44,399 nt of DNA, taken from positions 1 through 44,399 of IMG/VR virus record IMGVR_UViG_3300018059_000005; one strand, written 5' to 3'. The notes below the pieces were generated by a model. It was not told the DNA's origin. It ran no database searches and saw only the letters and a program-made list of their open reading frames with translations. Source of the DNA: a virus. The translations under genes were made by a program, and so were the position numbers. This document shows positions 19,766-34,830 of this stretch, in pieces; the first letter of the stretch is position 1; each line of letters opens with the position of its first letter.

Positions 19766-20491
19766 TTATCTTACTAACCTCATCGCATCAATCTGTCTCA
19801 TTTCAGGAATGATATCTTCATAAAGAATAGGAATACATTCTTGAAATTGTTTTAGTAATGGAATTGTTACTTCTCTCATCTGAGGATGTGCTTCTTTGCA
19901 TGTTCTCATAATGAAGAAATGACGCCAAGTTCGTAAGTTCATGGTTGCAATTAAACGACTTGCAAGGGCATTGGGAAAAATTGAGCGAGCGATTTGAGGT
20001 TTGATTCCATTTTTAATTAGTTCTTTATAGGCGTCTTCACACGTTTCAATAACATTTTCCCAACAGCATTGACCAATAGTGGATTCAATGCAATCATCTT
20101 TAATTTCTCCATATTCATGATTATTGAATGGATATATAAAACTCGGTGGCATCTTCTTTTCATAATTCACAAATCGAGTTGATTCCTGAGTGTAAGACGC
20201 TAATCTGTGTCTGACAATTTCATGTGTGATTCCACGATCCACATAGAAATCAACGGTTGCACTTGCATGCTCTGTAATTGACCAATCTCCATGACCAAGA
20301 ACTACTGCTCGGATGAAGCGATCATAACTATAATCCGTTTGGGAATCTTCAGAACGATGTGAAATACGGCCACACCATTCAATTTTACGAAGAAGATTTA
20401 TTCCATTTCCTTTAGTAAAATCTACAATAGGGTTTATGGAACCATCATCACAGAAATTTATTAACTTTGCATACGGCTTCACAATCTGCAT
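19766..20491 (-). CDS. thyX: Flavin-dependent thymidylate synthase
   Basis: A 241-residue protein, normal length for ThyX. The diagnostic motif RHRxxSxxxxSxR is complete as RHRLASYTQESTR (residues 94-106). EHASATVDFYVDRGITHEI just before it and NLRTWRHFFIMRT near the C-terminus also fit the family. It makes dTMP from dUMP using methylene-tetrahydrofolate and FAD/NADPH, supplying thymidine for an AT-rich genome. It is the last gene of the early operon. Its start follows an AAAGGTGAATTAA cassette shared with the neighbouring MazG-like gene. Confidence 0.96.
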   Translation of the reverse strand: MQIVKPYAKLINFCDDGSINPIVDFTKGNGINLLRKIEWCGRISHRSEDSQTDYSYDRFIRAVVLGHGDWSITEHASATVDFYVDRGITHEIVRHRLASYTQESTRFVNYEKKMPPSFIYPFNNHEYGEIKDDCIESTIGQCCWENVIETCEDAYKELIKNGIKPQIARSIFPNALASRLIATMNLRTWRHFFIMRTCKEAHPQMREVTIPLLKQFQECIPILYEDIIPEMRQIDAMRLVR

Positions 20492-20512
20492 TTAATTCAC
20501 CTTTCTTTTTTC

Positions 20513-20854
20513 TTAAAATAATTTATTTCCATGTTTAAATGTTCTAGTTTCATTGTATCTTTGTTTTACTTCCACGCACATATCAGGATCTATTCCTAAA
20601 ATTGCAAATAAATGTAATATTCTTATTAGCAAATCTGCAAGTTCTATGGGAAATCCCTCTGGTTTAGTACCATCTTTGTGATAAATTTGGTATAATCCGT
20701 TATTATTTCTTAATTCTTCAACCGCTTCGCTTATTTCTGTATGCATTAGCAGTAGTTTTTCTTTAGCTATTTCTATTTTATCTCTATTTTCTTCATTCCA
20801 TCCATTGTTTTTACCCCACTCCAAAATTTCTAATGCTCGTTCATTCATTGTCAT
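20513..20854 (-). CDS. MazG-like nucleotide pyrophosphohydrolase
   Basis: A 113-residue all-helical protein. HTEISEAVEELR (about residues 34-45) and ELADLLIRILHLFAI (about 69-83) carry the E-x-x-E and E-x-x-D metal-binding pairs of the MazG/dUTPase-like superfamily. It probably hydrolyses a (d)NTP to the monophosphate, either dUTP, feeding ThyX next door, or another non-canonical nucleotide. The ATG abuts the stop of the small gene upstream, with the ribosome binding site AAGGTGAATTAA provided by that gene's last codons. Confidence 0.88.
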   Translation of the reverse strand: MTMNERALEILEWGKNNGWNEENRDKIEIAKEKLLLMHTEISEAVEELRNNNGLYQIYHKDGTKPEGFPIELADLLIRILHLFAILGIDPDMCVEVKQRYNETRTFKHGNKLF

Positions 20855-21013
20855 TTAATTCACCTTCCAAAGATTAATTCTTATGTAAAATTTAAAGAAT
20901 CTAATTAATAGAACTCTCCTAATTTCTCCTTTTGACATTCCATGTATTAGTTTAATTTTTGGCCAAAATCCCATTGGGAGTATAGCAGATAACATAACTT
21001 GTTCTTTTTTCAA
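20855..21013 (-). CDS. Small basic protein with TTG start
   Basis: A 52-residue reading frame filling the gap between the DUF3987 gene and the MazG-like gene. It starts at a TTG that overlaps the upstream TGA (TTGA) and has the GGAAAGGTGAA site encoded by the end of that gene. Its own stop abuts the MazG-like ATG. The product is hydrophobic/basic (KIKLIHGMSKGEIRRVLLIR near the centre), so it may be membrane- or nucleic-acid-associated. No family is recognised. An internal ATG at codon 7 is an alternative start. Confidence 0.55.
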   Translation of the reverse strand: MKKEQVMLSAILPMGFWPKIKLIHGMSKGEIRRVLLIRFFKFYIRINLWKVN

Positions 21014-22209
21014 TTCACCTTTCCTTTCATTTCTAATTCGTTTAAAAACATATTTCTTCCTTTGTTACTAATTTCGTAAGTAGTCTTCAATTGATTTCCC
21101 CCAGTATAAACAAGACCACTTTGTTCAAGCGTCATTATTGCTTTGTCTAACATTTCTGCATCAATTCTTCCAAGTAATGTACTAAGAAGAAATTCTCGTT
21201 CAATTGGCCGATTCATTTTTATAAGCATAACCATGACTTCTGTTATACATTGACCAATGGGTGTACTTCCGGTTCCTACAGAAGCAGTTAATTTCTTATA
21301 ATTTACCCAAATTTTAGATATCTTTTCTATTGCCCTCACCATATGTCGTTTTTCAACTATAAGATCAAATCTTGGTTCTGACGCTCCTAATAAAATTGCA
21401 AGTTTAAGTGCATGTATATGTGCTCGATGTTCAAATCCAGTATGCGATTCATTTTTTTCAAAATCGCAAGCTTTATACCAATCATCCATATATTTAATAG
21501 CATCTTCAGTAACTTTTATTATACCTTTCTTTCTTGCTAATTCATGAAGATGTTTAATCAATGGCTCTAAATCTACATCAGTTGTTGGATCATTAAATCC
21601 TAAATCTTTATGTCTAGCTTTATTTTCTACTAGAATAATTTGACGTCCCACTAATCCTCCATGTACATCTACATTAGAAAACATATCTTTAAGAAATGCA
21701 AAATTAGTTGCAGCTATAAATGTAACACAAGTATCTTTTAAAGTAACAACTTCTTGAGATTTGAGAAGGACTGGGTGTTCCTCATGATAATCATAAATAT
21801 CAGTTAGAATTCCTGAAGTCTGTGTATCTTTAACTAGGAAGGATGCAAGTTCTTCAGTGTACATTAAGCATGAAGCTCCTTTAATTGTCTTATTTTCTCT
21901 ATTTTTTACTGCTGCAAGTTCATTTAAAACTGCTTGAATAGATGCACGTCCTTCAATGATCTTAGTGTTATTAATTGTTTTTACCAATCTACTTAGTGCT
22001 TTTAATGGTGAAGATTTTCTTGTTGCTGCTGAATCTCCAATAAACATTACATATATGTTGGGATATACTCTTCTAAAAGCACCAAATCTAACATAAGCAT
22101 TATCACGCATAACAGCAGCTAATGCAGTGTATCCCGCCCATTCAAAATAACTTGTTGGTGATTCCATGTATCGCGTAACTTTAAGAAATTCTTCAATAAA
22201 ATCATCCAT
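21010..22209 (-). CDS. DUF3987-type P-loop ATPase, replication-associated
   Basis: A 399-residue protein. A Walker A-like segment FIGDSAATRKSSPLKAL (G58 to K65-S66) and a Walker B-like strand CLMYTEELASF (E119/E120) lie with the spacing of DUF3987 proteins, relatives of phage/plasmid replicative helicases that often lack a primase domain. A C-terminal winged-helix-like region (IEREFLLSTLLGRIDAEMLD, then LEQSGLVYTGGNQLKTTYEI) could bind DNA. It probably acts at the replication fork or in initiation. It overlaps the small zinc gene upstream by eight bases. Confidence 0.8.
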   Translation of the reverse strand: MDDFIEEFLKVTRYMESPTSYFEWAGYTALAAVMRDNAYVRFGAFRRVYPNIYVMFIGDSAATRKSSPLKALSRLVKTINNTKIIEGRASIQAVLNELAAVKNRENKTIKGASCLMYTEELASFLVKDTQTSGILTDIYDYHEEHPVLLKSQEVVTLKDTCVTFIAATNFAFLKDMFSNVDVHGGLVGRQIILVENKARHKDLGFNDPTTDVDLEPLIKHLHELARKKGIIKVTEDAIKYMDDWYKACDFEKNESHTGFEHRAHIHALKLAILLGASEPRFDLIVEKRHMVRAIEKISKIWVNYKKLTASVGTGSTPIGQCITEVMVMLIKMNRPIEREFLLSTLLGRIDAEMLDKAIMTLEQSGLVYTGGNQLKTTYEISNKGRNMFLNELEMKGKVN

Positions 22210-22375
22210 TAGCTATCTCTTTTGAATCAGAATCTTTTCCATAACGAGATAAATAGTAATGGCGCAATACACGAATTCGATTAAGACAAGCTGGACAAAC
22301 TCCACATTCACAAGATGCTTTTGGTCCTCTCTTCTTTGGAGGGGGTATTTTTGGTATTTTGAAGGGTTTAGGCAT
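22202..22375 (-). CDS. Small Cys4 zinc-binding protein
   Basis: A 57-residue protein. A basic, proline-rich N-terminus (PKIPPPKKRGPKA) leads into CECGVCPACLNRIRVLRHYY, a compact C-x-C-x-x-C-x-x-C knuckle followed by an arginine-rich helix. Similar small CxCGxCxxC proteins occur in phage early operons and probably bind nucleic acid. The stop overlaps the DUF3987 start (ATGGATGA). Its ATG lies three bases after the previous stop. It is too short for routine detection, but the cysteine pattern and exact junctions support it. Confidence 0.8.
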   Translation of the reverse strand: MPKPFKIPKIPPPKKRGPKASCECGVCPACLNRIRVLRHYYLSRYGKDSDSKEIANG

Positions 22376-22378
22376 GGA

Positions 22379-22618
22379 TTAAAGTTTTTCACCAGAAAGA
22401 ATTCTCTGTTCTAAATCAAATTCATCCGTTGACCAAGTTATACATATACCAGATAAATTCCATAAAAGAATTAATCTTCTTTTTTCATAAGTAACTGGAT
22501 TTAATTCTATACCAATCCAAAATATTTTATTATCAATTAAAATTTTCTTTTCTACTTCAACTACATTTGATAATCGAGATGTTCGCCATTTTCCAGTGAA
22601 ATCCATTTCTTCAATCAT
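22379..22618 (-). CDS. Hypothetical early protein
   Basis: A 79-residue protein, I start it at the ATG at 22618, which has a GGAG site nine bases upstream, instead of an in-frame TTG at 22633. It is acidic with tryptophan-rich strands (KIFWIGIELNPVTYEKRRLI, LLWNLSGICITWSTDEFDL), so probably a small beta-sheet protein. No family is recognised. It overlaps the previous gene by eight bases. Confidence 0.75.
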   Translation of the reverse strand: MIEEMDFTGKWRTSRLSNVVEVEKKILIDNKIFWIGIELNPVTYEKRRLILLWNLSGICITWSTDEFDLEQRILSGEKL

Positions 22619-22874
22619 CTGAAATTTCTCCAATCAGTCCTAAAAGTTTAAGTGTTACGTAGAAATCTTTGAGTCCTGGTGTTTCTTTTTCGATTTTGTT
22701 ATGTTCAATTTCCCAAATTGCTGTGTATACTTTACAGAGTTTGTTATAAATGCAATGAACTCTATAGTAGATGAGATACTGAAATGGCCATTGTTCAAAT
22801 AAAAGAAATACATTTCCTGATTTATCATCTGGCTCAATAAGTATTTCTTTGCATGTTATTTTTCTAAATTCCAT
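22611..22874 (-). CDS. Hypothetical early protein
   Basis: An 87-residue protein from the ATG at 22874, with a GGAAG site nine bases upstream; an upstream TTG (22889) is less likely. The sequence mixes strands (EILIEPDDKSGNVFLLFEQW) and a helical C-terminus (LKDFYVTLKLLGLIGEISDD). No family is recognised. It overlaps its neighbours by 19 and 8 bases, so it is translationally coupled in the operon. Confidence 0.75.
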   Translation of the reverse strand: MEFRKITCKEILIEPDDKSGNVFLLFEQWPFQYLIYYRVHCIYNKLCKVYTAIWEIEHNKIEKETPGLKDFYVTLKLLGLIGEISDD

Positions 22875-23134
22875 GTATTTTTCTTCCAATCAAATATTAT
22901 TGCTTTCATTGGTATCATATAAGCACTAAAGAAGTATAAATTATTATCTGGTAAATCTTCTGATAAATGTATTTTTATTTTCTGTTTTATTACATTTTTA
23001 AAAAGAACACTATTAGTAATTAATTTTATATATCCCTCCAAAGTACAATAAACACTAGTTAATGGCGGTCCATCTCCTTCTCTACATTTATCATACATTT
23101 CTTGTAAAGTTTTTATATTTAATTGTTTTTCCAT
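22856..23134 (-). CDS. Hypothetical early protein downstream of the polymerase
   Basis: A 92-residue protein, started at the ATG at 23134, which overlaps the end of the DNA polymerase gene by 16 bases and has a GGTGG-type site; a TTG at 23152 would add six residues. A helical N-terminus (LNIKTLQEMYDKCREGDGPP) is followed by strands ending FDWKKNTWNLEK. Together with the two following small genes it forms a trio of unknown proteins of about 80-90 residues, possibly accessory to replication. Confidence 0.75.
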   Translation of the reverse strand: MEKQLNIKTLQEMYDKCREGDGPPLTSVYCTLEGYIKLITNSVLFKNVIKQKIKIHLSEDLPDNNLYFFSAYMIPMKAIIFDWKKNTWNLEK

Positions 23135-25572
23135 TCCACCATCTCTCCCCAAGAAATTTCTCCTAAAGTAACCTCACCGGGAATAACTAATTGATAATCT
23201 CGTTTTAAACAACATTCATTGAAATCAATTGGAATTCTAACTGCATTTAGAAATGATTCACAAAATTTATCCTTTGCTCCAATTGCAACTTCAAAAGTTA
23301 ATGAATCATGGGATTCACAAATTGGAAATGCAATCGGCGGAGGAAATTTTTCAACAAGTTTAGAAATAATAGTGAATTTATTATGGTCACTCACTGTAGC
23401 TTGTGGTATTGTTGAAAAGGCTTGCTTGTACATTGGATCTTCAACACGCCCAAAGAAATCTCGCCTTCGTCCATGTGGACTTATTAAATAACGAAATTGA
23501 TCTATTCTCTCCTTAATCTGAGCATGAAAAATACCACGAATTTTAGGGGATATTTCATGAAATCGTGTAAGAATTTCTTTACATCTTGATTTATCAAAAT
23601 GAGTCATTACTGAGAGGACACCTGGTCCTGCGTCGTAGTTTCCTGCATGGCGTGGTTCTTTTCCCAAGTATTGCCGATCATCATATTCAATGTCTTCAAA
23701 TGCTTTTCCAGTAATGAGCATAGCTGTAAGAACGTGGCGGTCATCTTTAAATCCATTTTTATTTCTTCTGAAAGTGGTTCTATTAAGAATTTCCATTCCT
23801 TCCCAATCTTCCGCGAGCACACACACAACTCTATCTTCGGCTTGGGCTTGATCTCCTTCAATGAAACAATATCCAGGAGAAGGAATGAATATTCTTCTGA
23901 GATCTTTTCCAAAAGATTCCTTACCAAACTTAAATCCATGTTTTGGGATTGTTTGGAAAGATCCCCCGAGATCAATTTCTTCGATTTTACCTTTTTTACC
24001 AATGACATAACCTTTCTCCAATGATTTACCTGCTGTATTTCTACCTGTTTTTGCCCATCCAAGACGAAAAGAACTTCGCATTCTTCCATCAGGAGAGATC
24101 GGATTTACAAGAAATTGAATTACTTTTCCCAACTTACGAGCAAAAATTAATCGTTTAAGAACTTCCTTAATTCCTGTATCTGTGATTTCATTAATATATA
24201 TTTCCTCAATAGTATCTTCTCCGGTATCGTAGGCTTGTTTCCCGGAATCCGTTGTATGAGAATGTTTAGGACATTTAAGTATATCATAGACGAACTTTCC
24301 AACTTGTGCAGGAGAGAGAGGGTTGATTCTTTCTCCAGCGATAAGATTGATAATTGTACAATTTTCTTCGAAAAGTGGCCTGTATTTATTGAGGAGTTTC
24401 TTTCTTTCTTGGTCATCTACTCTAATTCCTCTTTCTTCCATTTTCTTAAATGTAAAGAATGCTGGCATTACATTCTTGAAAAAGAAAACTTTCACACCTT
24501 GTGTATGTGCATCATTTAACTGTTTATCCCAAGTTTGCCAAGCCACTAAGGCATCTTTGGCATTGTAAATTAGAAGTTTATCTGCTGAATGAATTTTTGG
24601 ATCATATTCTTTACCTTCATCTTTGTAATATGGCTGATCTGAATATATGGAACAAAGAAAATCTAGGCCCTTGGGTAATTCAGGATAAATAGTTGACTGC
24701 ATCAACATTGTATCACCAATAATATTATGAATATCAAATCCCCATTGCTGTAGAACTGACCAATCATATTTGATATTCTGATTTATCTTGGGAAGTTTAG
24801 ATTTTAGAATTTCATCAATAAGTTTATACAAATATCCTCTACTATGACCATCCATTGAATTACCAACAAGAAGTGGTACTGAAATTGCTTCATATCCATC
24901 ATGACAGAAACTTATACAAGTAATAAAGCCATGATGAGTTTCAATGTCTAAAGTTAGGAATCGACCTTCTTTTCCTCGTTCCCACCATTTAGATAATTCT
25001 CCAGGAGTTCTAACTATCCAAACTAATTCTTTTGGTTGGAACAAGGAATTTAGTTTTCGTAATTCGAATACTTTTCCAATATCCCATTGAGTATAGGAGT
25101 AGGGTATCTCATTTTGTTCCATTATATCCCGCATTGAGAGACATGGAACTACATTTATTGGAAGTTCAGTTAATGAAGGATCTATGTGAAGAATTGATCC
25201 CCTGTGCTTATGAATAGATTTTTCTGCAGTAATTCCAGTAAGTGCCAATTCTCCAAAAGATAGAATTACTTTTGGTTTAACTGCTGCTATTTCTTCCTTG
25301 ATGATATGTTTCCAGTTTTGTAATTCGAATACCTTTGCTAAAGCCTCCTTTTTTACTTTAGCAATTTTAGATTTAAAGCCTGGAATTGGAACCTTGATAA
25401 AATGAGTACAGTAGGAATTCTCAACCTTCCATTTATAAGGTGATAAAAGTGTATTTGTAAATCGTCTTATCCCTCCTTCAAAAGCTACACCACGAGTATT
25501 TTCTTCTTCGGTGGGATAATCTCCGACTATCATAATATCAGAAGGTGGGCCGGTTGCTGAGATGGAGTTCAT
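23119..25572 (-). CDS. Family A DNA polymerase with N-terminal uracil-DNA-glycosylase-like domain
   Basis: An 817-residue phage replicative polymerase. Residues ~10-150 match the family 4 uracil-DNA-glycosylase fold (IMIVGDYPTEEENTRGVAFE), but the usual C-terminal His motif is replaced by VVPCLSMRD, so the domain may be inactive. The 3'-5' exonuclease has LTLDIETHH (D209, E211), NIKYDWS (D270) and LIYNAKDAL (Y336, D340). The polymerase has motif A IEGDQAQAEDR (D574), motif B KEPRHAGNYDAGPG (Y646 at the nucleotide-selecting position) and motif C ESHDSLTF (H755-D756). Motif C reads HDS, not the common HDE. SPO1-type phage polymerases share this glycosylase-polymerase layout. It overlaps the HTH-like gene upstream by 35 bases. 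Confidence 0.95.
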   Translation of the reverse strand: MNSISATGPPSDIMIVGDYPTEEENTRGVAFEGGIRRFTNTLLSPYKWKVENSYCTHFIKVPIPGFKSKIAKVKKEALAKVFELQNWKHIIKEEIAAVKPKVILSFGELALTGITAEKSIHKHRGSILHIDPSLTELPINVVPCLSMRDIMEQNEIPYSYTQWDIGKVFELRKLNSLFQPKELVWIVRTPGELSKWWERGKEGRFLTLDIETHHGFITCISFCHDGYEAISVPLLVGNSMDGHSRGYLYKLIDEILKSKLPKINQNIKYDWSVLQQWGFDIHNIIGDTMLMQSTIYPELPKGLDFLCSIYSDQPYYKDEGKEYDPKIHSADKLLIYNAKDALVAWQTWDKQLNDAHTQGVKVFFFKNVMPAFFTFKKMEERGIRVDDQERKKLLNKYRPLFEENCTIINLIAGERINPLSPAQVGKFVYDILKCPKHSHTTDSGKQAYDTGEDTIEEIYINEITDTGIKEVLKRLIFARKLGKVIQFLVNPISPDGRMRSSFRLGWAKTGRNTAGKSLEKGYVIGKKGKIEEIDLGGSFQTIPKHGFKFGKESFGKDLRRIFIPSPGYCFIEGDQAQAEDRVVCVLAEDWEGMEILNRTTFRRNKNGFKDDRHVLTAMLITGKAFEDIEYDDRQYLGKEPRHAGNYDAGPGVLSVMTHFDKSRCKEILTRFHEISPKIRGIFHAQIKERIDQFRYLISPHGRRRDFFGRVEDPMYKQAFSTIPQATVSDHNKFTIISKLVEKFPPPIAFPICESHDSLTFEVAIGAKDKFCESFLNAVRIPIDFNECCLKRDYQLVIPGEVTLGEISWGEMVEWKNN

Positions 25573-25867
25573 TTTCTTTCATCTTTTCCAATAACTCGTT
25601 TAACTTAAATTGATCAGTTTCTAAAACTGCCTTCAATGACTCTAACCGAATTAGTTTTGGTTCTTTTCGTAGTTTCTTGAGTGCAGCTATATGGTTATTA
25701 ACCCATGATGGTCGTACATTAAGGAATTTCATTATTTCTCTGGGTTGCATATAGAACTGTAAATAGTAGAAGGCAAGAAATTGGATACGCCAATCTTGTG
25801 AATTAATGCACTCAAGGGCCAATTCTTGAGCTTTTTCTTTTGAAGATGCAATTTTAGGTTTTCTCAT
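25538..25867 (-). CDS. Small helix-turn-helix-like protein
   Basis: A 109-residue, all-helical basic protein. REIMKFLNVRPSWVNNHIAA (residues ~43-62) has the spacing of a helix-turn-helix, with a possible recognition helix PSWVNNHIAALKKLRKE. A second helical region (LNELLEKMKENEL) closes the protein. It could be a transcription regulator or a replication-initiation accessory factor; its gene overlaps the polymerase start by 35 bases. The HTH call is by pattern only. Confidence 0.7.
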   Translation of the reverse strand: MRKPKIASSKEKAQELALECINSQDWRIQFLAFYYLQFYMQPREIMKFLNVRPSWVNNHIAALKKLRKEPKLIRLESLKAVLETDQFKLNELLEKMKENELHLSNRPTF

Positions 25868-26081
25868 GTTCCCTAATTATAATATCTTTTGGTTCTCCAA
25901 CTCTAGCGTGTCTGGATTCTACTAGAATCAATGTGATTTCTGCACCCTCTGAAATGTGAAAGTCCAAATATGGCTTGGTTCTTTCATTCAGAAATGCTAA
26001 TTTAATTAGCTGTACCTCTCTTGGACTTTCGGGAGTAAGCACAACTTTGTTTTGATCGTTAAATTGAAAGTTAACTTTCAT
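25854..26081 (-). CDS. Hypothetical early protein
   Basis: A 75-residue, beta-rich protein (KVNFQFNDQNKVVLTPESPR, then AEITLILVESRH). It resembles small strand-rich phage early proteins of unknown function. It overlaps the HTH-like gene by 14 bases and the previous gene by 11. Confidence 0.75.
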   Translation of the reverse strand: MKVNFQFNDQNKVVLTPESPREVQLIKLAFLNERTKPYLDFHISEGAEITLILVESRHARVGEPKDIIIREHEKT

Positions 26082-26271
26082 GTTGATTCCCTCTCAAGTT
26101 TTTCAAATCTTTTATAAATAAGAGAGTAAAACCTGATTTACATTCCTCACAATTTCTAAAATGAATAGCTTGAGATTCATGTTCTTTTTGATGAATACTT
26201 AAAGCTATCTGGAATGCATGCTGGTATTCTTCACTTTTTTTTATTTCCTTAACTTGAGATTGAGTTAACAT
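26071..26271 (-). CDS. Hypothetical early protein with a Cys pair
   Basis: A 66-residue protein: helical and charged (SQVKEIKKSEEYQHAFQIAL) with a single HFRNCEECKSGF motif near residue 37-48 that could bind a metal with the neighbouring histidines. No family is recognised. It overlaps both neighbouring genes. Confidence 0.7.
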   Translation of the reverse strand: MLTQSQVKEIKKSEEYQHAFQIALSIHQKEHESQAIHFRNCEECKSGFTLLFIKDLKNLRGNQHES

Positions 26272-26437
26272 TGTAAAGAAACAGCCTTTCTACTTCATTT
26301 AGAAGTTCTTGTGCATATTTTTCATTTATTTTACCTGGAAGATCAAAAAATCTTGGTTGTCCAAATTGATCTCTAAACCAGATTGATGATCTCCCCAATG
26401 AACTGCTATAATCTACTCTCATGAATTTAAGTTTCAT
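26249..26437 (-). CDS. Hypothetical early protein
   Basis: A 62-residue protein with an N-terminal strand region (MRVDYSSSLGRSSIWFRDQF) and a helical C-terminus. The ATG has a GGAGG site ten bases upstream in the preceding gene. No family is recognised. Confidence 0.72.
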   Translation of the reverse strand: MKLKFMRVDYSSSLGRSSIWFRDQFGQPRFFDLPGKINEKYAQELLNEVERLFLYNVNSISS

Positions 26438-26760
26438 TCCACATTTCCTCCATACTGCTTTCTTGTCACAGAATCCACAATTTCATTATGATGATGTTTT
26501 GGGTGTTCTGGAGCAATGGATTCAAGAACACAATATACTGCTACATTGATTAAATTCTCCTGATTTCCGGTCCTTTTATAAGCTTTGAGTTCTTTTTGAA
26601 GACGAGATAAATAGAGCTGTTTTCCATGAGGGCCAGCATATCTTAAAAATCCAATAAAGAATCTATTAACCATTTTCTGTAAGAATTTCTGAAGAAATGT
26701 TGTTCCTTCTGGTTTTATTTTAGAACTTACAAAGAGTTCCAAATTACTTTCCTTTTTCAA
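26434..26760 (-). CDS. Hypothetical helical protein with TTG start
   Basis: A 108-residue helical protein. There is no ATG before codon 30, and a GGTGG site precedes the TTG at 26760, so I accept TTG. The C-terminal half, ENLINVAVYCVLESIAPEHP followed by HHHNEIVD, resembles a short helical pattern seen in phage proteins of unknown role. A PKHHHNE histidine cluster could bind metal. It starts inside the 29-residue membrane gene (17-base overlap). Confidence 0.68.
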   Translation of the reverse strand: MKKESNLELFVSSKIKPEGTTFLQKFLQKMVNRFFIGFLRYAGPHGKQLYLSRLQKELKAYKRTGNQENLINVAVYCVLESIAPEHPKHHHNEIVDSVTRKQYGGNVE

Positions 26761-26833
26761 ATTTAAACCACCAAAGAATTATCACAAGACTTAGAAGAAT
26801 AATGGTTATGTTTTCTAGAAGATCAAATTTCAT
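26744..26833 (-). CDS. 29-residue single-pass membrane microprotein
   Basis: A very short reading frame with a 17-residue apolar helix (ITIILLSLVIILWWF) between an acidic N-terminus and a lysine-rich tail, the layout of a small inner-membrane protein. It overlaps the next gene by 17 bases. The ribosome binding site is weak, so support comes from the hydrophobic pattern and from three similar microproteins in the same operon. Confidence 0.5.
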   Translation of the reverse strand: MKFDLLENITIILLSLVIILWWFKFEKGK

Positions 26834-26850
26834 TTCTGTGTCTCAAGACA

Positions 26851-27057
26851 TTAGTTTCTCAGTTTCGCAATAACAATATAACAATGACCAAATTTGAATT
26901 CAATTCGAGAATGGTCACAATTAGTAGTTTCAAGATAAACTCTTGCATCTTGAACTGCTCGTTCGAGAGATGTCTCCGGCCGAATCTCAAGTTTAAGAGT
27001 TTTTCCAGTAGAGACATAAAAAGACTTAGAAAGAACTTCATTCATGTTAAGTGGCAT
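26851..27057 (-). CDS. Hypothetical early protein
   Basis: A 68-residue alpha/beta protein (KTLKLEIRPETSLERAVQDA, EFKFGHCYIVIAKLRN). Its ATG lies inside the end of the upstream gene (11-base overlap). No family is recognised. Confidence 0.72.
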   Translation of the reverse strand: MPLNMNEVLSKSFYVSTGKTLKLEIRPETSLERAVQDARVYLETTNCDHSRIEFKFGHCYIVIAKLRN

Positions 27058-27265
27058 TTGGAATCTCCCTCATGAACTCAAAAGCTTCAGCAAGTTTTTC
27101 AGCTTGTTCAGGAGTTTTTGTAAAAATAGTTAGATCAAAACTTGAATATCTAACTTCAACCCAATTAATAAATCTTCTATCAGGGGTATCGACATTTAAT
27201 TGAATATTAGTTGATTGAATATTAGTTGATTTAATTTTATCAGCAAGATGAATATTGATGTCCAT
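27047..27265 (-). CDS. Hypothetical early protein
   Basis: A 72-residue protein from the ATG at 27265, which follows a GGAG sequence 12 bases upstream; the more distal ATG at 27298 lacks a site but is possible (83 residues). A 15-base perfect tandem duplication at 27201-27230 gives the residue repeat STNIQSTNIQ. A beta-strand/helix C-terminus follows (FDLTIFTKTPEQAEKLAEAF). No family is recognised. Confidence 0.65.
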   Translation of the reverse strand: MDINIHLADKIKSTNIQSTNIQLNVDTPDRRFINWVEVRYSSFDLTIFTKTPEQAEKLAEAFEFMREIPNAT

Positions 27266-27366
27266 TTGATTTTCTTTCTCCGATTCATGATTTAACATTG
27301 CGGAACAGAATCGGTAACAATCCAGGCCGTTTTATAAGTTATCGCCCGTGAAACTCTCCCTAAGTA

Positions 27367-27792
27367 TTAAAAGGGAACTACATCATCCGGTGCAAAACAA
27401 TTGGCCTTCTTTAGGATTCGACCTTCATAAGGTTCATCCTTAATTTCACACCAAATTTTGGTGCCTGCCATCTTTTCGTACTCTACTTCTTTGCCAATGA
27501 GTTCATCAGCAGTACATTTAAGAAGAGCGATTGTTAAACCGACCAATGTATTGGCGGCTTCTGTAACACCTGAAGAAAGTGCATTTCCATAAACTACAAC
27601 AGCAAATGCACGTCCCTTATTTTCTTCAGTATTACCAGGACCAGCAATACACTCAAATGCAAAAACGTAATCCAAAACTCCAGGACTACCTTTATGTGGT
27701 TTCTTTTTGAACTCCTTAAATTCAAGAAAAGTCCATCCCGCAGACATTTGCTTTGTCGCGGAAATAATTTCAGCAGTGAATAGAATTGGCAT
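27367..27792 (-). CDS. Putative single-stranded DNA-binding protein
   Basis: A 141-residue beta-rich protein (FTAEIISATKQMSAGWTFLE, VLDYVFAFECIAGPGN) ending in FAPDDVVPF. An acidic tail closing in P-F is the hallmark protein-interaction tip of bacterial and phage SSBs. It lies just downstream of the Sak4-like recombinase gene, a usual partner. The core is not a recognisable OB-fold signature, so SSB-like is an inference from the tip, size and context. Its ribosome binding site is weak, and a 68-base gap without genes follows it downstream. Confidence 0.68.
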   Translation of the reverse strand: MPILFTAEIISATKQMSAGWTFLEFKEFKKKPHKGSPGVLDYVFAFECIAGPGNTEENKGRAFAVVVYGNALSSGVTEAANTLVGLTIALLKCTADELIGKEVEYEKMAGTKIWCEIKDEPYEGRILKKANCFAPDDVVPF

Positions 27793-27801
27793 GTCGTTTG
27801 T

Positions 27802-27969
27802 TTAATAAAAAACTTTTTCTTCAGTAATTAAACTGAATGAAAAAATTACTTCTCCTGTTTCTTTATCCACAATATCAGTTTGGGGTTCATCTTCATTGGT
27901 ACTGATTTGAATGGAATATTTTTTGCAAAGTTCTACAAGATCTTTTTTAATTTCGTTATGATCTGCCAT
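27802..27969 (-). CDS. Small acidic hypothetical protein
   Basis: A 55-residue reading frame: helical basic start (NEIKKDLVELCKKYSI), then acidic strands (TDIVDKETGEVIFSFSLITE). Its ATG overlaps the preceding TGA by one base (TGATG), a typical coupled junction in this operon. No family is recognised. The gap it fills would otherwise be empty. Confidence 0.7.
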   Translation of the reverse strand: MADHNEIKKDLVELCKKYSIQISTNEDEPQTDIVDKETGEVIFSFSLITEEKVFY

Positions 27970-28211
27970 CAAAGATCCGATTGTTTTCTAACTGGCCATA
28001 ATTTAGCCAGTTCTCTGTGTGCAATAACTGTTTGCACGAATTTATGATCATGACCTGATGCTTCGGCCATTGCTGCATAAACCGTAAGCATAGGAATAAA
28101 AAGAGAATCCTGTGCTCGTAGAAGAAAAACAGGTTCATCCTTAGGAATTCCCTTTCCTTTTTCTACGAATGGATCTTGAATACGATTGTAGTCTTTTCGT
28201 GCATGAATCAC
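27969..28211 (-). CDS. Hypothetical early protein
   Basis: An 80-residue protein with GTG start overlapping the recombinase stop (GTGA). Central hydrophobic helix LFIPMLTVYAAMAEASG and a histidine/lysine-rich C-terminal helix. Such a gene between a Sak4-like ATPase and an SSB-like protein may be part of the recombination module. No family is recognised. Confidence 0.72.
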   Translation of the reverse strand: MIHARKDYNRIQDPFVEKGKGIPKDEPVFLLRAQDSLFIPMLTVYAAMAEASGHDHKFVQTVIAHRELAKLWPVRKQSDL

Positions 28212-29071
28212 TTCTTTACCTCAACTTTCTTCTCAACTTTCTTTTCATTCAGCTTCGAAATCAGAAATTCATAGAAATTTTTTCCAGTGATTTCGAACTT
28301 TCCAGGAGGTAATCCAAGGGCCGATTTTGCAAAACCACCTGTGAATTCAGCAAAGTGTTTTGGACCCTGTGATACAATTGGATTTTCCTCTTTGTAAAAA
28401 CGGTAAACTTCATCAAAGTAACCAGGAATTTCTTCTGCAAGATTTTGACTTGCTCCCGCCAATCTTTCCCCAATTACTTCGGAAGGTGCATAATCACTTG
28501 ATCCTTGTTTTTTCCCCCAGAGATTAGTTACCCAAGCTGAGAAAATGACATTGATTCCTACTTCGGCCAATGGCATTACCCATTCAAACATCAAGATTCT
28601 AAATGCGGTGGATACATAATTATAATCATCTGGATGAAGGAATTTGACTTTACCACGAACTTTTCCTTCAAATTTTCCTTCCTGTCCACGTAATCTTAGG
28701 GAATCCCGAGCTAACATAGCGGCCAGAGAACCAACAGAATTAACAAAAATACTTTTGTATTTGCATTTTCTCTGTTGTGCGTCTATGAGAATTATTGATC
28801 CCTTATTATCAATTGCTTCAAATCCATCTTTGGGATTATAAAAGTCAAAATCAACTTTGGAGATACGTTCCTTTCCCAACCAAGCCAAAGAACTAAGCCC
28901 TCCCCTTATACGATTGTCAATATCAAATGTATAACTTGGTCCTGGAAAACTCCATTGAGCACAATCTTTACCAGAACCTGAACGACCAACAAAGAGAGCA
29001 ACAAAACCTTTATCTAACTTAGGTTTTAGTTCTTCTCCATCAATTGTGAATAAATCAAGAGCATTAGCCAC
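28208..29071 (-). CDS. Sak4-like RecA-fold ATPase (recombination)
   Basis: A 287-residue P-loop protein. Walker A is FVGRSGSGKDCAQW (K35), with Asp at the usual Thr/Ser position. A conserved YTFDIDNRIRGGLSSL strand follows, as in Sak4/AAA_24-type phage recombinases. The expected Walker B Asp is Asn in KSIFVNSVGSLAAM, so catalysis may be altered. A C-terminal lysine-rich tail (KKVEKKVEVKK) ends it. Likely role: single-strand annealing or strand invasion during replication. It starts with GTG after GAGGAAATAC and overlaps the small membrane gene upstream by eight bases. Confidence 0.82.
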   Translation of the reverse strand: MANALDLFTIDGEELKPKLDKGFVALFVGRSGSGKDCAQWSFPGPSYTFDIDNRIRGGLSSLAWLGKERISKVDFDFYNPKDGFEAIDNKGSIILIDAQQRKCKYKSIFVNSVGSLAAMLARDSLRLRGQEGKFEGKVRGKVKFLHPDDYNYVSTAFRILMFEWVMPLAEVGINVIFSAWVTNLWGKKQGSSDYAPSEVIGERLAGASQNLAEEIPGYFDEVYRFYKEENPIVSQGPKHFAEFTGGFAKSALGLPPGKFEITGKNFYEFLISKLNEKKVEKKVEVKK

Positions 29072-29216
29072 GTATTTCCTCTTCTATTCTTACCAATTCA
29101 CTAGTAATGTTATCTCTTAAAATTTCTAATTTATTGTAACTAGAATTTATTCCCATTTCTTTTTCGAGAATAAATAAAAGTGTCCTTAGAATTAAAAAAC
29201 TGATCCAAAGTGTCAT
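29064..29216 (-). CDS. 50-residue protein with N-terminal membrane helix
   Basis: A reading frame in the gap between the zinc-ribbon gene and the recombinase. ATG overlaps the previous TGA (CAATGA) and has a GGAGG site eight bases upstream. Residues 3-17 (LWISFLILRTLLFIL) are apolar, and the rest is a charged helix (LEILRDNITSELVRIEEEI). It may be a peripheral or single-pass membrane protein. No family is recognised. Confidence 0.65.
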   Translation of the reverse strand: MTLWISFLILRTLLFILEKEMGINSSYNKLEILRDNITSELVRIEEEIRG

Positions 29217-29740
29217 TGTTTTCCCTCCATCAGTTTCTCTAATTTCTTTTGTAATCTCCGAGTTAATTCGGCTTCCTGTTCTTGAGTCATTCCCCTTGCA
29301 GGATCTGCTAAAATAATGTCGATTGATGGAATTTGATCAATGGGTTCAATGGCTATTCCTGGTTCCTGAAATGAATCTTTAATTTCATCAGTTGGGGGAA
29401 GGACCAATTCCATTTGTTTCTGTTTTGATTCTAATTCATTTACATGCATAACTAATTTGAGAAATTCATCCTTTTTTCCTTCTTCTTCTAATCGTGTCAA
29501 GAGGAAAATTTCATCTTGTGATAATGGCCGTTTAGTACATTTATGACATTGAAGTTCAGTTTGATTCTTTTGATATTGTAGAACGATGTACTTTTCGAAA
29601 CATTTCGTACAAATTGCATATCGTCCAATTATGTATTGCCAAGGTCGCATGACAAAACAAGTAGGAGACGTACAACAAACGAAAATTTTCTTGGTGGAGA
29701 CTCCGAATTTTCTCCATCCGTGAAGGTGGACAGTGATCAT
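29213..29740 (-). CDS. Zinc-ribbon protein with acidic C-terminus
   Basis: A 175-residue protein. The N-terminal ~75 residues hold cysteine pairs (FVCCTSPTCF, ICTKCFEKYI and CHKCTKRPL), suggesting two zinc sites. The remainder is a helical/acidic tail (LTRRLQKKLEKLMEGKQ at the end) with a PRGMTQEQEAEL helix. It could be a DNA- or RNA-polymerase-binding adaptor. No family is recognised. A single base separates it from the upstream gene. Confidence 0.72.
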   Translation of the reverse strand: MITVHLHGWRKFGVSTKKIFVCCTSPTCFVMRPWQYIIGRYAICTKCFEKYIVLQYQKNQTELQCHKCTKRPLSQDEIFLLTRLEEEGKKDEFLKLVMHVNELESKQKQMELVLPPTDEIKDSFQEPGIAIEPIDQIPSIDIILADPARGMTQEQEAELTRRLQKKLEKLMEGKQ

Positions 29741-29741
29741 C

Positions 29742-29951
29742 CTAAAGTCCTCTTGCTTCTAATGCTGCTTGAGTCAGGAGAGCACGTATTGTTTTTATAT
29801 GTTTTTTTAATCTAATATCAGTATATTGTTCATTAAAATTATCACATGCTTCTCTCATACATCCAATAGTTGCTTCCATTGAATCTATTGACAATCTTTC
29901 TTCAATTAATTTTACGAAATTCTCTTTTACTAAGATTTCTGGATTTGTCAC
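29742..29951 (-). CDS. Hypothetical helical protein
   Basis: A 69-residue all-helical protein with GTG start overlapping the previous stop (GTGA) and an AAAGGA site. Sequence such as LVKENFVKLIEERLSIDSME suggests a helical hairpin. No family is recognised. Confidence 0.7.
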   Translation of the reverse strand: MTNPEILVKENFVKLIEERLSIDSMEATIGCMREACDNFNEQYTDIRLKKHIKTIRALLTQAALEARGL

Positions 29952-30304
29952 GATGTTGGTCCTTTCAAGAAATTAGCAAATTCATTTGCCATTGATGCAA
30001 AGTCAGCAGTCTTAGGTGATGAAACTGCTTTCTTTTTTGCAGGAGTTGAGGATTTGGCCATTTTCACATCAGCAGATTCATCCCGCTTATGGCCAATTCT
30101 TACATGGGATTGACGAAGTTCTTCCCTAATGAGATTATAAAATGTTTCAACAATAATTGCTTTTTTAGCCCATTCTGCAAGTGAATCATCCGGCTTGAAG
30201 AAACCAATAAACATAGTTTTGGCTTCGACAATTGCAGTGAGTCTAGTTTCGATGGAAGTTGATTTTATTCTTCCAATTACTTCGTTAGCTTGTGGTTCTT
30301 CCAT
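29948..30304 (-). CDS. Hypothetical protein with basic linker
   Basis: A 118-residue protein: helical N-terminal domain (residues 5-70, with EWAKKAIIVETFYNLIREEL), then a lysine/serine-rich linker (AKSSTPAKKKAVSSPK) and a short helical tail (FASMANEFANFLKGP). The linker resembles nucleic-acid-binding tails. No family is recognised. Confidence 0.72.
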   Translation of the reverse strand: MEEPQANEVIGRIKSTSIETRLTAIVEAKTMFIGFFKPDDSLAEWAKKAIIVETFYNLIREELRQSHVRIGHKRDESADVKMAKSSTPAKKKAVSSPKTADFASMANEFANFLKGPTS

Positions 30305-30311
30305 GTGTGAA

Positions 30312-30398
30312 TTACCAAGAACAAAACAACAAAAATAAGAACCATAGAATTTTAAATGCTATATAGATTCCAATGAGTATTACTGCAAGTTCGAACAT
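30312..30398 (-). CDS. 28-residue membrane microprotein
   Basis: The product is almost entirely one membrane helix (LAVILIGIYIAFKILWFLFL). It has the best ribosome binding site of the small genes (AAAGGAG, five bases before ATG) and fills the gap between the nuclease and the following gene. It may act at the host membrane, for example as a replication-membrane anchor or superinfection-exclusion peptide; function is unknown. Confidence 0.65.
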   Translation of the reverse strand: MFELAVILIGIYIAFKILWFLFLLFCSW

Positions 30399-30408
30399 GG
30401 TTTCTCCT

Positions 30409-31221
30409 TTACCAACTCCTGTACTGTTTCAATTGTACAAACTTACTTTTAATAATCCAATCCTTTGCTACTTGGGAGGGTTGTTCACAAATTTCATGGT
30501 ATTCACAAATGCCAAACTTGGATTGGCAAGCTGAACGATTGCGAATGAAACTACGATTGCTGATTGATCTCTTAATTCGAAAGAACCATTCAATTGTGTC
30601 ATTTTTCCATTGGTCGATTTGGGAGGGGGTGAATTTGTGAACTGTTCGACGGAACCAATCATCCTTTGTGAATTTGATATAGTTGTAGATGAAATGATCT
30701 AATTCTAATCCCCAGCAATATCCAATGGCTTGATTATTGTGCTCATATATACTGTACTTCATAGATTGATGTTTATGGTCAATTCCAATTTTCTGATTTC
30801 TGCCTTTACAAATTAAATCTGGTCGTCCTTCATATACAAAGAGATTATTTTCATCCTCATATAATAGCTTACTAAATCCACGTTCTACTGCTAATATATC
30901 TTTCCAATCTTTGTCCTTGTATTCTTTATGATATGCCATCATCACAACTGCAAATTCTTTGGCTTCTTCAAATGAAAATTTGAGAAGTTTCTGTGCTAAA
31001 TTTACAGTCATGAAGGGATTGAGCGGAACAAGTATGTTCTTTCCTTTCATCTTGCGATAGTAGTAGTTTGCAAGCATTCGTGAAATAAGAGATCCCTTAA
31101 GTAATGCTTTTTTCTCTGCACTAGGACGAATTGATAAAAGGGCCTTAAATTTATACAGTTCTTCGCATTGTTGAAAATATGTGAGAGAATGGCTATTGAG
31201 GATAAGTGTAAATTTAGACAT
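30409..31221 (-). CDS. PD-(D/E)XK nuclease with four-cysteine (Cas4-like) signature
   Basis: A 270-residue RecB/Cas4-superfamily nuclease. Catalytic pattern: E113 (AVERGF), D135 (EGRPDLI), D148-x-K150 (GIDHKH), and Q164-x-x-x-Y (QAIGY). The N-terminal SHSLTYFQQCEELYKF places C19, and the C-terminus has CQSKFGICEYHEIC (C232, C239, C245). One N-terminal and three C-terminal cysteines is the 4Fe-4S arrangement of Cas4, AddB and Dna2 nucleases. No CRISPR array or cas gene is present. It probably trims DNA ends for recombination or replication. I use the ATG at 31221 (GGAAAG site), not the TTG just upstream. Confidence 0.88.
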   Translation of the reverse strand: MSKFTLILNSHSLTYFQQCEELYKFKALLSIRPSAEKKALLKGSLISRMLANYYYRKMKGKNILVPLNPFMTVNLAQKLLKFSFEEAKEFAVVMMAYHKEYKDKDWKDILAVERGFSKLLYEDENNLFVYEGRPDLICKGRNQKIGIDHKHQSMKYSIYEHNNQAIGYCWGLELDHFIYNYIKFTKDDWFRRTVHKFTPSQIDQWKNDTIEWFFRIKRSISNRSFIRNRSACQSKFGICEYHEICEQPSQVAKDWIIKSKFVQLKQYRSW

Positions 31222-31405
31222 CAATTTCTTTCCAATCTAATATAGATTCATAAATTCTTACATTTCTGAAAATATTTGGCTGTGCTCTCAATAATTTTAC
31301 ATGATCCATTAACAATTCACTCAATACAGTATATCTATCCACAACCATATTCCAATTTCCCATAGAATCTCTTGATTGATATACTACTTTCCACATTTTA
31401 TCCAT
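31214..31405 (-). CDS. Hypothetical early protein
   Basis: A 63-residue protein from the ATG at 31405, with an AAGGA site six bases upstream; a longer in-frame start would run into the previous gene by about 100 bases. Sequence WKVVYQSRDSMGNWNMVVDR suggests a small alpha/beta fold; RNIFRNVR-type basic residues are near the end. No family is recognised. Confidence 0.7.
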   Translation of the reverse strand: MDKMWKVVYQSRDSMGNWNMVVDRYTVLSELLMDHVKLLRAQPNIFRNVRIYESILDWKEIDV

Positions 31406-31688
31406 TGGATTCCTTATTGAATTCCTTATTCCATTCTTCAAGTTCCATGATTTGCTTAAATTTGAGATATTGTTGATAGAAAATAACTCCATGAACAAAT
31501 TCTAATACTATTGGTTTACCTGTTTCAGCACAAGATTCTGAAAATTTACATAGTTCATTAATGAATTCAGGATCTTCAACTTCGTTCATTAATAAACGTA
31601 AGAGTTCTGCTGGATTTCCAAAAGCTGTATTTTCACACTTGCAGAACAGACTTAGAGTTTCGTTAAAAGCTTTTTCTGGAGTAGTCAT
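31398..31688 (-). CDS. Hypothetical helical protein with Cys residues
   Basis: A 96-residue helical, acidic protein (LSLFCKCENTAFGNPAELLR) with cysteines at CKCE and later CKFSESCAE. No family is recognised. It overlaps the DUF2786 gene by four bases. Confidence 0.7.
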   Translation of the reverse strand: MTTPEKAFNETLSLFCKCENTAFGNPAELLRLLMNEVEDPEFINELCKFSESCAETGKPIVLEFVHGVIFYQQYLKFKQIMELEEWNKEFNKESNG

Positions 31689-32350
31689 TTTAGTAATTTT
31701 CCTTGATTTCCAGATTGAATTCCTGATACTAAATTTATGTTTTGACCAGATTCTTGACCGGCCAATGTTCCAGAATGGGAAGAGGTCCCTGATTGAGAAT
31801 CAAATGATCCTTCTGAATTTGTCTGTGCTTTTGCATGAACTGGATCATAAATTACTAATCCATTAGATTGATTTATATTTTCTCTGAATCTATTGTTTAA
31901 AGTAGTTGAGAATGCCGACCAAAATGTTTCATCAAATGAGATTGTTCGGTGAATTCGATATCCATTTTGATAATCTATTTTGGCTTGATTTAAAATGGAA
32001 TCCAGCCCATATTTGAGTACTTCAATGTTAGTTTTAAATCCATAAATTACTGGCTTGGTTCCACAAACTAAAATGTGACAACCAAACATGGGAGCCAATG
32101 CTGAAGTAATCCACGGAAGAGCTTTTTGAAGTCCACGTGAAGGATTGAATGGAGGATTATAAAGCTCAGTCATTACAATTTGAGGGCCGAAATTTGCATT
32201 CTGGTAGAGTTTATGTTCCTGAATGCAGTAATCGGCTATTAATTGTTGAGCTTTATTCATTGCAGATTTGGCTTCTGCTTCATTAGGACTGGATGCAAGG
32301 GCTAAAAGTTTCTTGATTTTGTCGATGATCTTATCTTCATTTTGCAACAT
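31685..32350 (-). CDS. DUF2786 domain protein
   Basis: A 221-residue protein. The N-terminal IIDKIKKLLALASSPNEAEA continuing AMNKAQQLIADYCI is the characteristic helical hairpin of DUF2786. A central domain follows (ITSALAPMFGCHILVCGTKP), then a serine/glycine/glutamine-rich low-complexity tail from ~165. DUF2786 proteins are common in phage early operons; the function is not established. It overlaps the next upstream gene by 14 bases. Confidence 0.85.
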   Translation of the reverse strand: MLQNEDKIIDKIKKLLALASSPNEAEAKSAMNKAQQLIADYCIQEHKLYQNANFGPQIVMTELYNPPFNPSRGLQKALPWITSALAPMFGCHILVCGTKPVIYGFKTNIEVLKYGLDSILNQAKIDYQNGYRIHRTISFDETFWSAFSTTLNNRFRENINQSNGLVIYDPVHAKAQTNSEGSFDSQSGTSSHSGTLAGQESGQNINLVSGIQSGNQGKLLK

Positions 32351-32510
32351 AAATGTATTCCTGATTCATTTGTAATGTTGTGGATTGCATAATGATTTTG
32401 AGTTCAAGTAATTCACTTAGGGAAGTATTTGTTTCTTGATCCCATTTAGCAGGAGAATGCACAAATCGACCCTTTTCTACTATTTCATTGATAATTTCAT
32501 TCGTTGTCAT
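32337..32510 (-). CDS. Small helical hypothetical protein
   Basis: A 57-residue reading frame filling the gap between two genes, overlapping each by 14 bases, with an AGGAG site seven bases upstream of ATG. Sequence TNEIINEIVEKGRFVHSPAK followed by a long helix (LSELLELKIIMQSTTLQM). No family is recognised, but junctions and site support it. Confidence 0.72.
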   Translation of the reverse strand: MTTNEIINEIVEKGRFVHSPAKWDQETNTSLSELLELKIIMQSTTLQMNQEYIYVAK

Positions 32511-32697
32511 TGATAATCTCCTGTGATTGTTCTTTCATCTTGTCATACTTTGTTTTCATCAACTGAATGATTTTCTTAACTTTGGAAAGGACCAAAGTTT
32601 CGTCTGCATTCAGTGTTTCCACTTCATTCATTACAGTTTCAATGATTTTGTAATCATCATACTGCAATTTTACGTATGTTTCCGTGTTGATGGACAT
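32497..32697 (-). CDS. Small coiled-coil-like protein
   Basis: A 66-residue acidic/helical protein (YDDYKIIETVMNEVETLNAD, then LSKVKKIIQLMKTKYDKMKE). It starts three bases after the helicase stop. No family is recognised. Confidence 0.72.
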   Translation of the reverse strand: MSINTETYVKLQYDDYKIIETVMNEVETLNADETLVLSKVKKIIQLMKTKYDKMKEQSQEIINDNE

Positions 32698-32700
32698 TAT

Positions 32701-34407
32701 TTATGCTCCCACGTATTGCATTCTTTTCATGACTACTTTTTTTGCCAAATCAAGAATGAAATCCTCTTCCGGAAGATCCTCAATGTCTGGATCAGCCGAA
32801 TCCACAATCAGGCCTTTTAAATGTACAAGCTCATCAAAATACTCGTCAAATGAGTCACGAGCCATTAAATAGTCAATGTTAACTGTATCTTCTTCACCAA
32901 ATTTTTCGATGATTCTTCCAAACTTGTCAGTTTTAATTCTGTGGAATCTTTGTTCAAACTGATCCTCACGTGCTTTATTCCACTGTCTTTCAAGAATGAT
33001 AGCATTCTTACAAAATTGTAAATTTCTACCCTGTCCAGCTGAAATGATAGATGCGATGAGGAGTCTTGATCCATTTCTAAATTTTCGTTCGATTTCATCT
33101 TTTATCTCCGGTCTTTCATCCGACATTGAAAGTGGATTCCAATGTGCTAGTAATTTGCATAACCATTCACGAACACTGACATGATGAACTCCAACACAGA
33201 GTTTTTCATCAGGTGCAGTATTTAACATAAATTCATGAATCAATTCCGCTGCATTGAGAGTTTTCATCATTCCTGTGCAGCGACGTAATTGAGACATGAA
33301 TCCAATAATACATCCGGTCGTTGGATGAGCTGAGGTTATTTCTCTCTCAAGTTCATCAAGAATCTTGTTATATTCTGCAATAAACTGTTTGTTTGATTCC
33401 CATTCTGATGGATGAAACCATTGTCGATGTTGCTGAAGTTTGGGAAGAGGAATCTTAACCTCATCCTTTGTCATTCGCAAAACATATTTATCAATGCGTT
33501 GAAAGAATTTATCTCTCCACCACGGTGAAATTGTGAGAGCTTTACCTTTTGAATTTTTCAAACACATATTCTCAATTACGTGAGGGCCAGAAAAATACTG
33601 TGGATCAAGCACATTGAGAGTTGTATAAAATTCTCTAACGTGATTGACAATTGGAGTTCCTGAGAGGAAAATTACTGATCCCCTTCCATTTCCATTCTCC
33701 CGTCCTTTTCGATCCATAATGCGAACTAACTCTTGGAGATTTGCAGTTCTTGAAGATGTTTCACTTTTGTACATGTGAGATTCATCTACAATCATGGAGC
33801 GATAATTGAATGTGGAAACCTGTTTAATGAAAGCAGGTTCTCCAATTCTGGTCCATGGAACAATGATGACTTTAGAAATCGGGGAGAGTTTCTGTTTGGA
33901 ATTTTGGTATATCTGAGGCATCATTTCAAATACGTCAAATGATTGACCAAATTCTAAACCGAACCATCGAAGGCATTCCTCTTGCCATCTATAAATATCT
34001 CCTGGTTGAATTACAATGAGACATGGAAGCATTTTATCCGCATTTTCTCGAAGTACAGAATTTGCAATGATTGTTTTACCTAGTCCCATTTCATGAGCAA
34101 GAAGTACTCTAAAGCCAGAATGTTCTGTGAACTCGACTGATCTTTTTTGAAAGGTGAGTAATCTATCCCAGAGAATATTTCGTTCTGATCGAGATTTCCA
34201 TACTTCTTTTTTGATTTCTCTTGAATGTCCGCACTTGAATATCTGATAGAGATATCCTGTTTCTTCTCCATCATCGAGGAGTTCACATTCTTGGACGATT
34301 TGTAATTCTTTGCCACAAACTTCTCCTCCACAAACTTGATCTCCTGTTTCATTCAAGGAAAGTTTGTATCTGAGTTCAGGACAATATTCAAGTATTCGTC
34401 GAAGCAT
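32701..34407 (-). CDS. SNF2-type superfamily 2 helicase/ATPase
   Basis: A 568-residue SF2 ATPase. Motif I HEMGLGKT (105-112), motif Ia-like LIVIQPGDIYRWQEE, motif II MIVDESHMYK (DESH, 208-211), motif III IFLSGTP (246-252), motif V IASIISAGQGRNLQ and motif VI QRFHRI (486-491) are all present, so it should be catalytically active. DESH and the GxGxxLQ-Q-R-HRI endings are SNF2-like. An N-terminal Cys cluster (VCGGEVCGKELQ) may bind zinc. It probably remodels or unwinds DNA in replication or recombination. No nuclease domain is fused. Confidence 0.93.
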   Translation of the reverse strand: MLRRILEYCPELRYKLSLNETGDQVCGGEVCGKELQIVQECELLDDGEETGYLYQIFKCGHSREIKKEVWKSRSERNILWDRLLTFQKRSVEFTEHSGFRVLLAHEMGLGKTIIANSVLRENADKMLPCLIVIQPGDIYRWQEECLRWFGLEFGQSFDVFEMMPQIYQNSKQKLSPISKVIIVPWTRIGEPAFIKQVSTFNYRSMIVDESHMYKSETSSRTANLQELVRIMDRKGRENGNGRGSVIFLSGTPIVNHVREFYTTLNVLDPQYFSGPHVIENMCLKNSKGKALTISPWWRDKFFQRIDKYVLRMTKDEVKIPLPKLQQHRQWFHPSEWESNKQFIAEYNKILDELEREITSAHPTTGCIIGFMSQLRRCTGMMKTLNAAELIHEFMLNTAPDEKLCVGVHHVSVREWLCKLLAHWNPLSMSDERPEIKDEIERKFRNGSRLLIASIISAGQGRNLQFCKNAIILERQWNKAREDQFEQRFHRIKTDKFGRIIEKFGEEDTVNIDYLMARDSFDEYFDELVHLKGLIVDSADPDIEDLPEEDFILDLAKKVVMKRMQYVGA

Positions 34408-34754: not shown

Positions 34755-34785
34755 TGTCGGTCCTTTTTTTCATTAACATCATCAT

Positions 34786-34822: not shown

Positions 34823-34830
34823 TCATGGTA

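Follow-up and report, generated by a model that had tools for sequence, protein, structure and literature searches.

The window analyzed here, a 44,399-base virus record, encodes a DNA polymerase whose fused N-terminal domain is predicted to keep the fold of a uracil-DNA glycosylase (UDG) and, judging from the aligned residues, has lost the catalytic residues of that enzyme, with the exonuclease and polymerase residues retained. Comparison with related phage polymerases indicated that this active site has been lost repeatedly, in several lineages. The UDG-like domain probably helps the polymerase to hold DNA, not to repair it. The fusion itself is known from SPO1-type phages; what is new is the pattern of intact, partial, and absent catalytic trios across the fusion polymerases, and we found no study of catalytic loss in these fused UDG domains in the open-licence literature.

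The gene occupies positions 23119-25572 on the minus strand, on which all features described below also lie, and is a genuine open reading frame of 817 aa with an ATG start, encoding a UDG-like domain, a 3'-5' exonuclease, and a family-A DNA polymerase. Its Pfam matches were far beyond chance and comprised UDG (PF03167; residues 9-117, E 1.4e-6, above the cut-off), DNA_pol_A_exo1 (residues 186-350), and DNA_pol_A (residues 539-772; 66.6 bits against a cut-off of 34.3). In PHROGs, the ORF matched DNA polymerase (phrog_17, E 8e-66). These results bear out the glycosylase-polymerase fusion proposed in the initial annotation and correspond to the SPO1-type layout, in which a UDG-like domain precedes the exonuclease and polymerase in a single phage ORF. 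Because the window also encodes a terminase, a portal protein, a major head protein, and primase-like, Sak4-like, PD-(D/E)XK, and SNF2-type proteins, it belongs to a tailed phage. The ORF is the replicative family-A polymerase of that phage. The primase-like gene (DUF3987/phrog_14296; 21010-22209) follows the polymerase gene; in relatives, this place is taken by an annotated DNA primase in L032 and L142 and by a DUF3987 gene in L034. A gene for ThyX, the FAD-dependent thymidylate synthase (19766-20491; TIGR02170, 111 bits, over the cut-off), lies two genes downstream on the strand of the primase-polymerase pair. At the DNA level, no close relative of window positions 20000-40000 was found in the phage collection.

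Relatives were recruited as sets of 29 loci, 26 loci, and the best 80 of 202 loci, using window-like and Mel-JY34-like queries, and the sample is not random. The main alignment of 93 rows contained the window, IMG/VR contigs, and named phages (90 rows plus L143, L147, and L148); split, truncated, and duplicate genes were left out. L078 and L082, which have no E41 column, were dropped from the 91-row counts. A quick tree, with a few long branches flagged, was built from the exonuclease and polymerase columns only.

The exonuclease domain (24493-25032) retained D209, E211, N266, D270, Y336, and D340. The corresponding exonuclease residues (D, E, N, D, Y, and D), together with polymerase residues D705 and K758, were invariant in 93 of 93 rows, and H881 and D882 were invariant in 91 of 91. 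When a profile of 24 relatives was aligned to Klenow (E 1e-56), K638 fell on K758, H642 on F762, and Y646 on Y766; the window equivalents of the catalytic D705, K758, and D882 are D574, K638, and D756, respectively. Motif A, DQAQAEDR (23830-23853), has D574 at D705 and E579 at E710. Motif B, KEPRHAGNY (23635-23661), contains K638, H642, and Y646 as well as R641 at position 761, and Gln is found at R754. Motif C is HDS (residues 755-757; 23302-23310). The DNA_pol_A match, the D705/K758/D882 equivalents, and the exonuclease motifs DxE, Nx3D, and Yx3D identify the protein as a family-A polymerase with a 3'-5' exonuclease.

Two of the polymerase motifs had been described at the outset as altered. 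Motif C is indeed HDS and not HDE, but this is no peculiarity: the residue after HD was Ser in 58 of the 91 aligned rows, Gly in 20, Ala in 12, Gln in 1, and Glu in none, and SPO1 has HDS like the window. HDS was therefore rejected as a special change. The second description, that Tyr occupies the nucleotide-selecting site of motif B, was wrong. Since the Klenow profile alignment puts H642 on F762, the nucleotide-selecting residue is His642, and Tyr was rejected for this role because Y646 aligns with Y766. Position 762 was His in 85 of 93 rows and Phe in 8; SPO1 has Phe where the window has His. Papers on this position treat Tyr, Phe, and Leu in their available portions (PMC13228545, PMC9069017, PMC6302109), and the same portions contain no mention of His at position 762. 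His762 thus lies outside the Tyr, Phe, and Leu classes of the papers searched.

Other positions of motif B also varied. The residues at positions 754 and 761 were Tyr and Arg in 31 of the 93 rows, Gln and Arg in 5, and Arg and Arg in 27. In the window's clade, R754 is mostly replaced by Tyr or Gln and an Arg at 761 adjoins His762, as if the triphosphate-binding Arg had moved. We considered whether loss of R754 tracks loss of the UDG site; it looks bound to the clade, and R754 is also lost in L042, L043, and L056, in which the UDG site is intact. Position 766, normally Tyr, was Arg in 15 of 93 rows (for example, L086 and L089), giving motifs such as RHAGERN.

The N-terminal domain (residues 1-179; 25036-25572) was assigned to the family-4 UDG type by Pfam PF03167, model, and profile, and it is catalytically eroded. 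In Thermus UDGa, uracil is bound by E41, G42, E47, F54, N80, and H155 (PMC5387724); the window has D18, Y19, E24, F31, H57, and S146 at these sites. Motif 1 reads GDYPT (25510-25524) instead of the family-4 GE[AG]PG, with D18 at E41 and Y19 at G42. The segment YCTHFIK (25393-25413) carries H57 at the uracil-binding N80. Motif 2 reads VVPCLSMRD (residues 141-149; 25126-25152) instead of v.PtyHPs, with S146 at the catalytic H155 and M147 at P156. Both the uracil-binding Asn and the catalytic His of HPS are missing. The absence of the His-containing C-terminal motif had been pointed out in the initial annotation, and the E41 and N80 sites are changed as well. The window scored 28.6 bits against TIGR00758, below the cut-off of 125.3, as did two intact relatives (114 and 117 bits). 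UdgX is defined by a GEQPG motif and a KRRIH R-loop (PMC10359453); the window has GDYPT instead of the former, and KRRIH is absent from residues 1-179.

The joint replacement of E41, N80, and H155 by D18, H57, and S146 strongly supports, at the level of sequence, the earlier proposal that the domain acts without cutting; in Thermus UDGa, the H155S substitution by itself lowers k2 by more than three orders of magnitude (PMC5387724). In the open-licence literature, we found no related polymerase with the window's residues that had been shown to excise uracil. The accompanying suggestion that the domain may recognise uracil holds less well for the window, because both side chains that hydrogen-bond to uracil (N80 and H155) are gone, and the Tyr at the G42 site would be expected to fill the uracil pocket. 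Uracil sensing appears more plausible in L040/L041 and L044, in which His alone of the trio is lost. The further idea that the domain may guide the enzyme is compatible with the findings.

A whole-chain AlphaFold model (28 sequences) reached a pLDDT of 90.9 and a pTM of 0.87, and its residues 181-816 matched Klenow, Pol theta, Pol nu, and T7 polymerase with Z of about 25-32. Because the matches listed in the whole-chain structure searches were polymerases only, the N-terminal domain was folded alone. The model of residues 1-179 (23 sequences; pLDDT 93) matched the Thermus family-4 UDG 1ui0 (Z 20.7, 2.2 A, 161 aa), likewise UdgX, and residues 34-205 of PDB 9qhs (Z 14.2). The profile of the domain aligned to 1ui0 with E 5e-23 and to 4zbx with E 1e-24. 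Both model and structure match thus place the domain in the UDG fold of family 4.

Compared with Thermus thermophilus UDGa (1ui0), the window domain has the same predicted fold but has E41, N80, and H155 replaced, and it is fused to a polymerase. The polymerase of Microcystis phage Mel-JY34 (PP438425) shares the domain order, His762, and HDS with the window, whereas its family-4 pocket is complete (E/A/E/F/N/N/H) and scores 114 bits against TIGR00758, compared with 28.6 for the window. SPO1-type polymerases (SPO1 gp31, Shbh1) have the same order of UDG-like domain, exonuclease, and polymerase. SPO1 keeps the E and H of the trio and has Ser at N80, whereas the window has all three changed. Aravind and Koonin reportedly described the SPO1 domain in their account of the UDG superfamily in 2000. 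The UDG domain of SPO1-type polymerases is also named in PMC5135824, where the suggested role is to "aid in polymerase processivity". A solved fusion of this type is the phiLo family-A DNA polymerase with modified template (PDB 9qhs), the segment of which matching the window domain was given above; its chain is 1142 aa long, compared with 817 aa in the window. A search for literature on 9qhs found no paper by code, and none was recognised by phage name.

Of the 91 rows, 34 had the complete E41/N80/H155 trio, 19 had part of it, and 38 had none of it. When the domain was aligned by itself, the residues at the trio were identical to these in 91 of 91 rows, and 14 split or truncated N-termini that were read separately had the whole trio in 6 cases. 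The entire pocket was found in 21 of 26 rows of a sister clade whose proteins share about 30% identity with that of the window, and also in Mel-JY34 and several of its relatives. On the exonuclease-polymerase tree, the division into intact and not intact required at least 8 changes, at least 6 of them forced by starred branches; if losses alone are allowed, about nine were counted by eye on the printed tree. Changes on the tree carry no direction by themselves, and they were read as losses because, in separate clades, the intact versions have the pocket residues of cellular family-4 UDGs.

The domain appears to have remained under constraint after the loss. The 29 UDG-domain columns that were invariant in 21 intact sister rows served as the comparison set for the window's dead clade (34 rows). 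E41, N80, N89, and H155 were retained in 0% of the dead-clade rows, and the N80, N89, and G42 sites varied freely (entropy 2.3-2.9 bits). G8, G33, R124, G125, S126, P147, and D164 were retained at 0.94-1.0, the window itself having Met at 147; the median for 74 comparable exonuclease-polymerase columns was 0.96. The dN/dS of dead UDG domains was 0.039 (L101/L117) and 0.054 (L083/L100), and that of L048/L045, a pair with one of the three trio residues left, was 0.169; of the 28 pairs printed, most were unusable through divergence, and the constraint is therefore seen in a small number of close, measurable pairs. Since dead domains keep the fold and evolve at a dN/dS of 0.04-0.05 in two close pairs, they would appear to have a job other than excision. 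The dS values of the UDG domain and the exonuclease-polymerase part of the same gene pairs were unequal (0.99 versus 0.21 in L083/L100, 1.08 versus 0.53 in L035/L036, and 0.28 versus 0.70 in L043/L056), which hints at recombination within the gene.

Uracil metabolism was considered as a factor deciding which phages keep the active site, and this was not supported. Among 51 related phage records, ThyX was above the cut-off in 1, the window, and neither Thymidylat_synt nor dUTPase PF00692, the sole dUTPase family covered, was found in any (0/51 each). Being nearly absent, these genes do not separate phages with an intact site from those with a dead one. PF03167 had exactly one match in 46 of the 51 records, each within an open frame as long as these polymerases (790-885 codons), and none above the threshold in 5; a second, separate UDG of this family was absent from all 51. 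The best 80 of 489 GTDB relatives included no cellular fusion, as none aligned before query residue 155.

We favor, with moderate confidence, the explanation that the fused domain is a non-excising, built-in DNA-holding or processivity module of the replicative polymerase, comparable to poxvirus D4, which partners a family-B polymerase. Such a built-in DNA-binding domain would keep template or duplex DNA close to the polymerase, and holding would raise processivity or steer template entry, a part that D4 plays as a subunit of its own. Any glycosylase activity in these fusions would then be secondary, and lineages could repeatedly do without it. According to PMC10253040, D4 is a UDG fold that serves the viral polymerase as a processivity factor, substitutions of basic residues on its surface cut processive synthesis and left glycosylase activity, and the need for its catalysis in growth is disputed. 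D4 differs from the window domain in being a separate subunit bridged by A20 and still catalytic. The net charge of the UDG domain was +2 in the window and on average +1.8 in dead and +1.5 in intact rows. Strong non-specific DNA binding is therefore not evident from composition, and net charge gave no clear signal as a separator of dead and intact domains.

The conserved residues outside the catalytic trio bear on another explanation, in which the domain is a passive structural cap or a docking platform for a protein such as primase, helicase, or clamp and makes no DNA contact of its own. E94, R124-G125-S126, and D164 are common to dead and intact fusion rows. Three free family-4 UDGs have Gln at the E94 site and Lys or Asn at the S126 site (alignments read by eye), a difference that would be expected of an interface, and E94 and S126 may contact the polymerase part; the pTM of the whole-chain model also agrees with a cap. 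However, E94 and S126 might simply be needed for folding, Lys occupies the S126 site in SPO1, and UdgX appears, in an alignment read by eye, to have E at the E94 site. We consider this explanation rather unlikely.

It is unlikely that the domain is a uracil or lesion sensor that binds template uracil without cutting and then stalls or recruits, for which the read-ahead pocket of archaeal family-B polymerases offers a comparison. The window carries ThyX, the fold is retained with E24 at the E47 site and F31 at the F54 site, and L040/L041 and L044 have lost His alone. In Thermus UDGa, the H155S substitution leaves Km nearly unchanged (PMC5387724). On the other hand, the window has His at N80 and Tyr at G42, the free variation of the N80, N89, and G42 sites in the dead clade is unlike a specific base pocket, and the uracil-related genes are nearly absent from the 51 records. 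A glycosylase that is still active through other residues, perhaps on another base, seems very improbable. The motif-2 His is also missing from other UDG families (PMC5387724), and 88 of 93 rows keep an acidic residue (Glu or Asp) at the E47 site, but all three key positions have changed together and are still changing within the clade.

Beyond the window, it is possible, if somewhat doubtful, that phages have repeatedly turned a fused UDG into a non-catalytic holding module, a counterpart of D4 in several lineages, and that these polymerases also form a distinct His762 class of family A besides Tyr, Phe, and Leu. If so, a single polymerase family would include both active and inactive forms of the repair enzyme fused to it, and comparison of natural pairs would allow a test of why phage replicases carry a glycosylase; the fusion would also parallel, within one chain, the poxvirus glycosylase that acts as a processivity factor. 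The His762 class would be a test case for the effect of this position on nucleotide choice and phage replication; in T7, recent work has tied this to burst size (PMC13228545).

Some features of the related genes were observed in passing. Five distant polymerases of named phages (L144, L145, L146, L148, and L149) have eroded UDG-like N-termini; all five adjoin a thymidylate synthase gene, and four of them also adjoin a gene for dCMP/cytidine deaminase. The polymerase gene of SPO1 has an intron. Among the relatives, the polymerase gene lies in two frames in L060, L053, L055, L140, L141, and L150, suggesting introns, inteins, or breaks.
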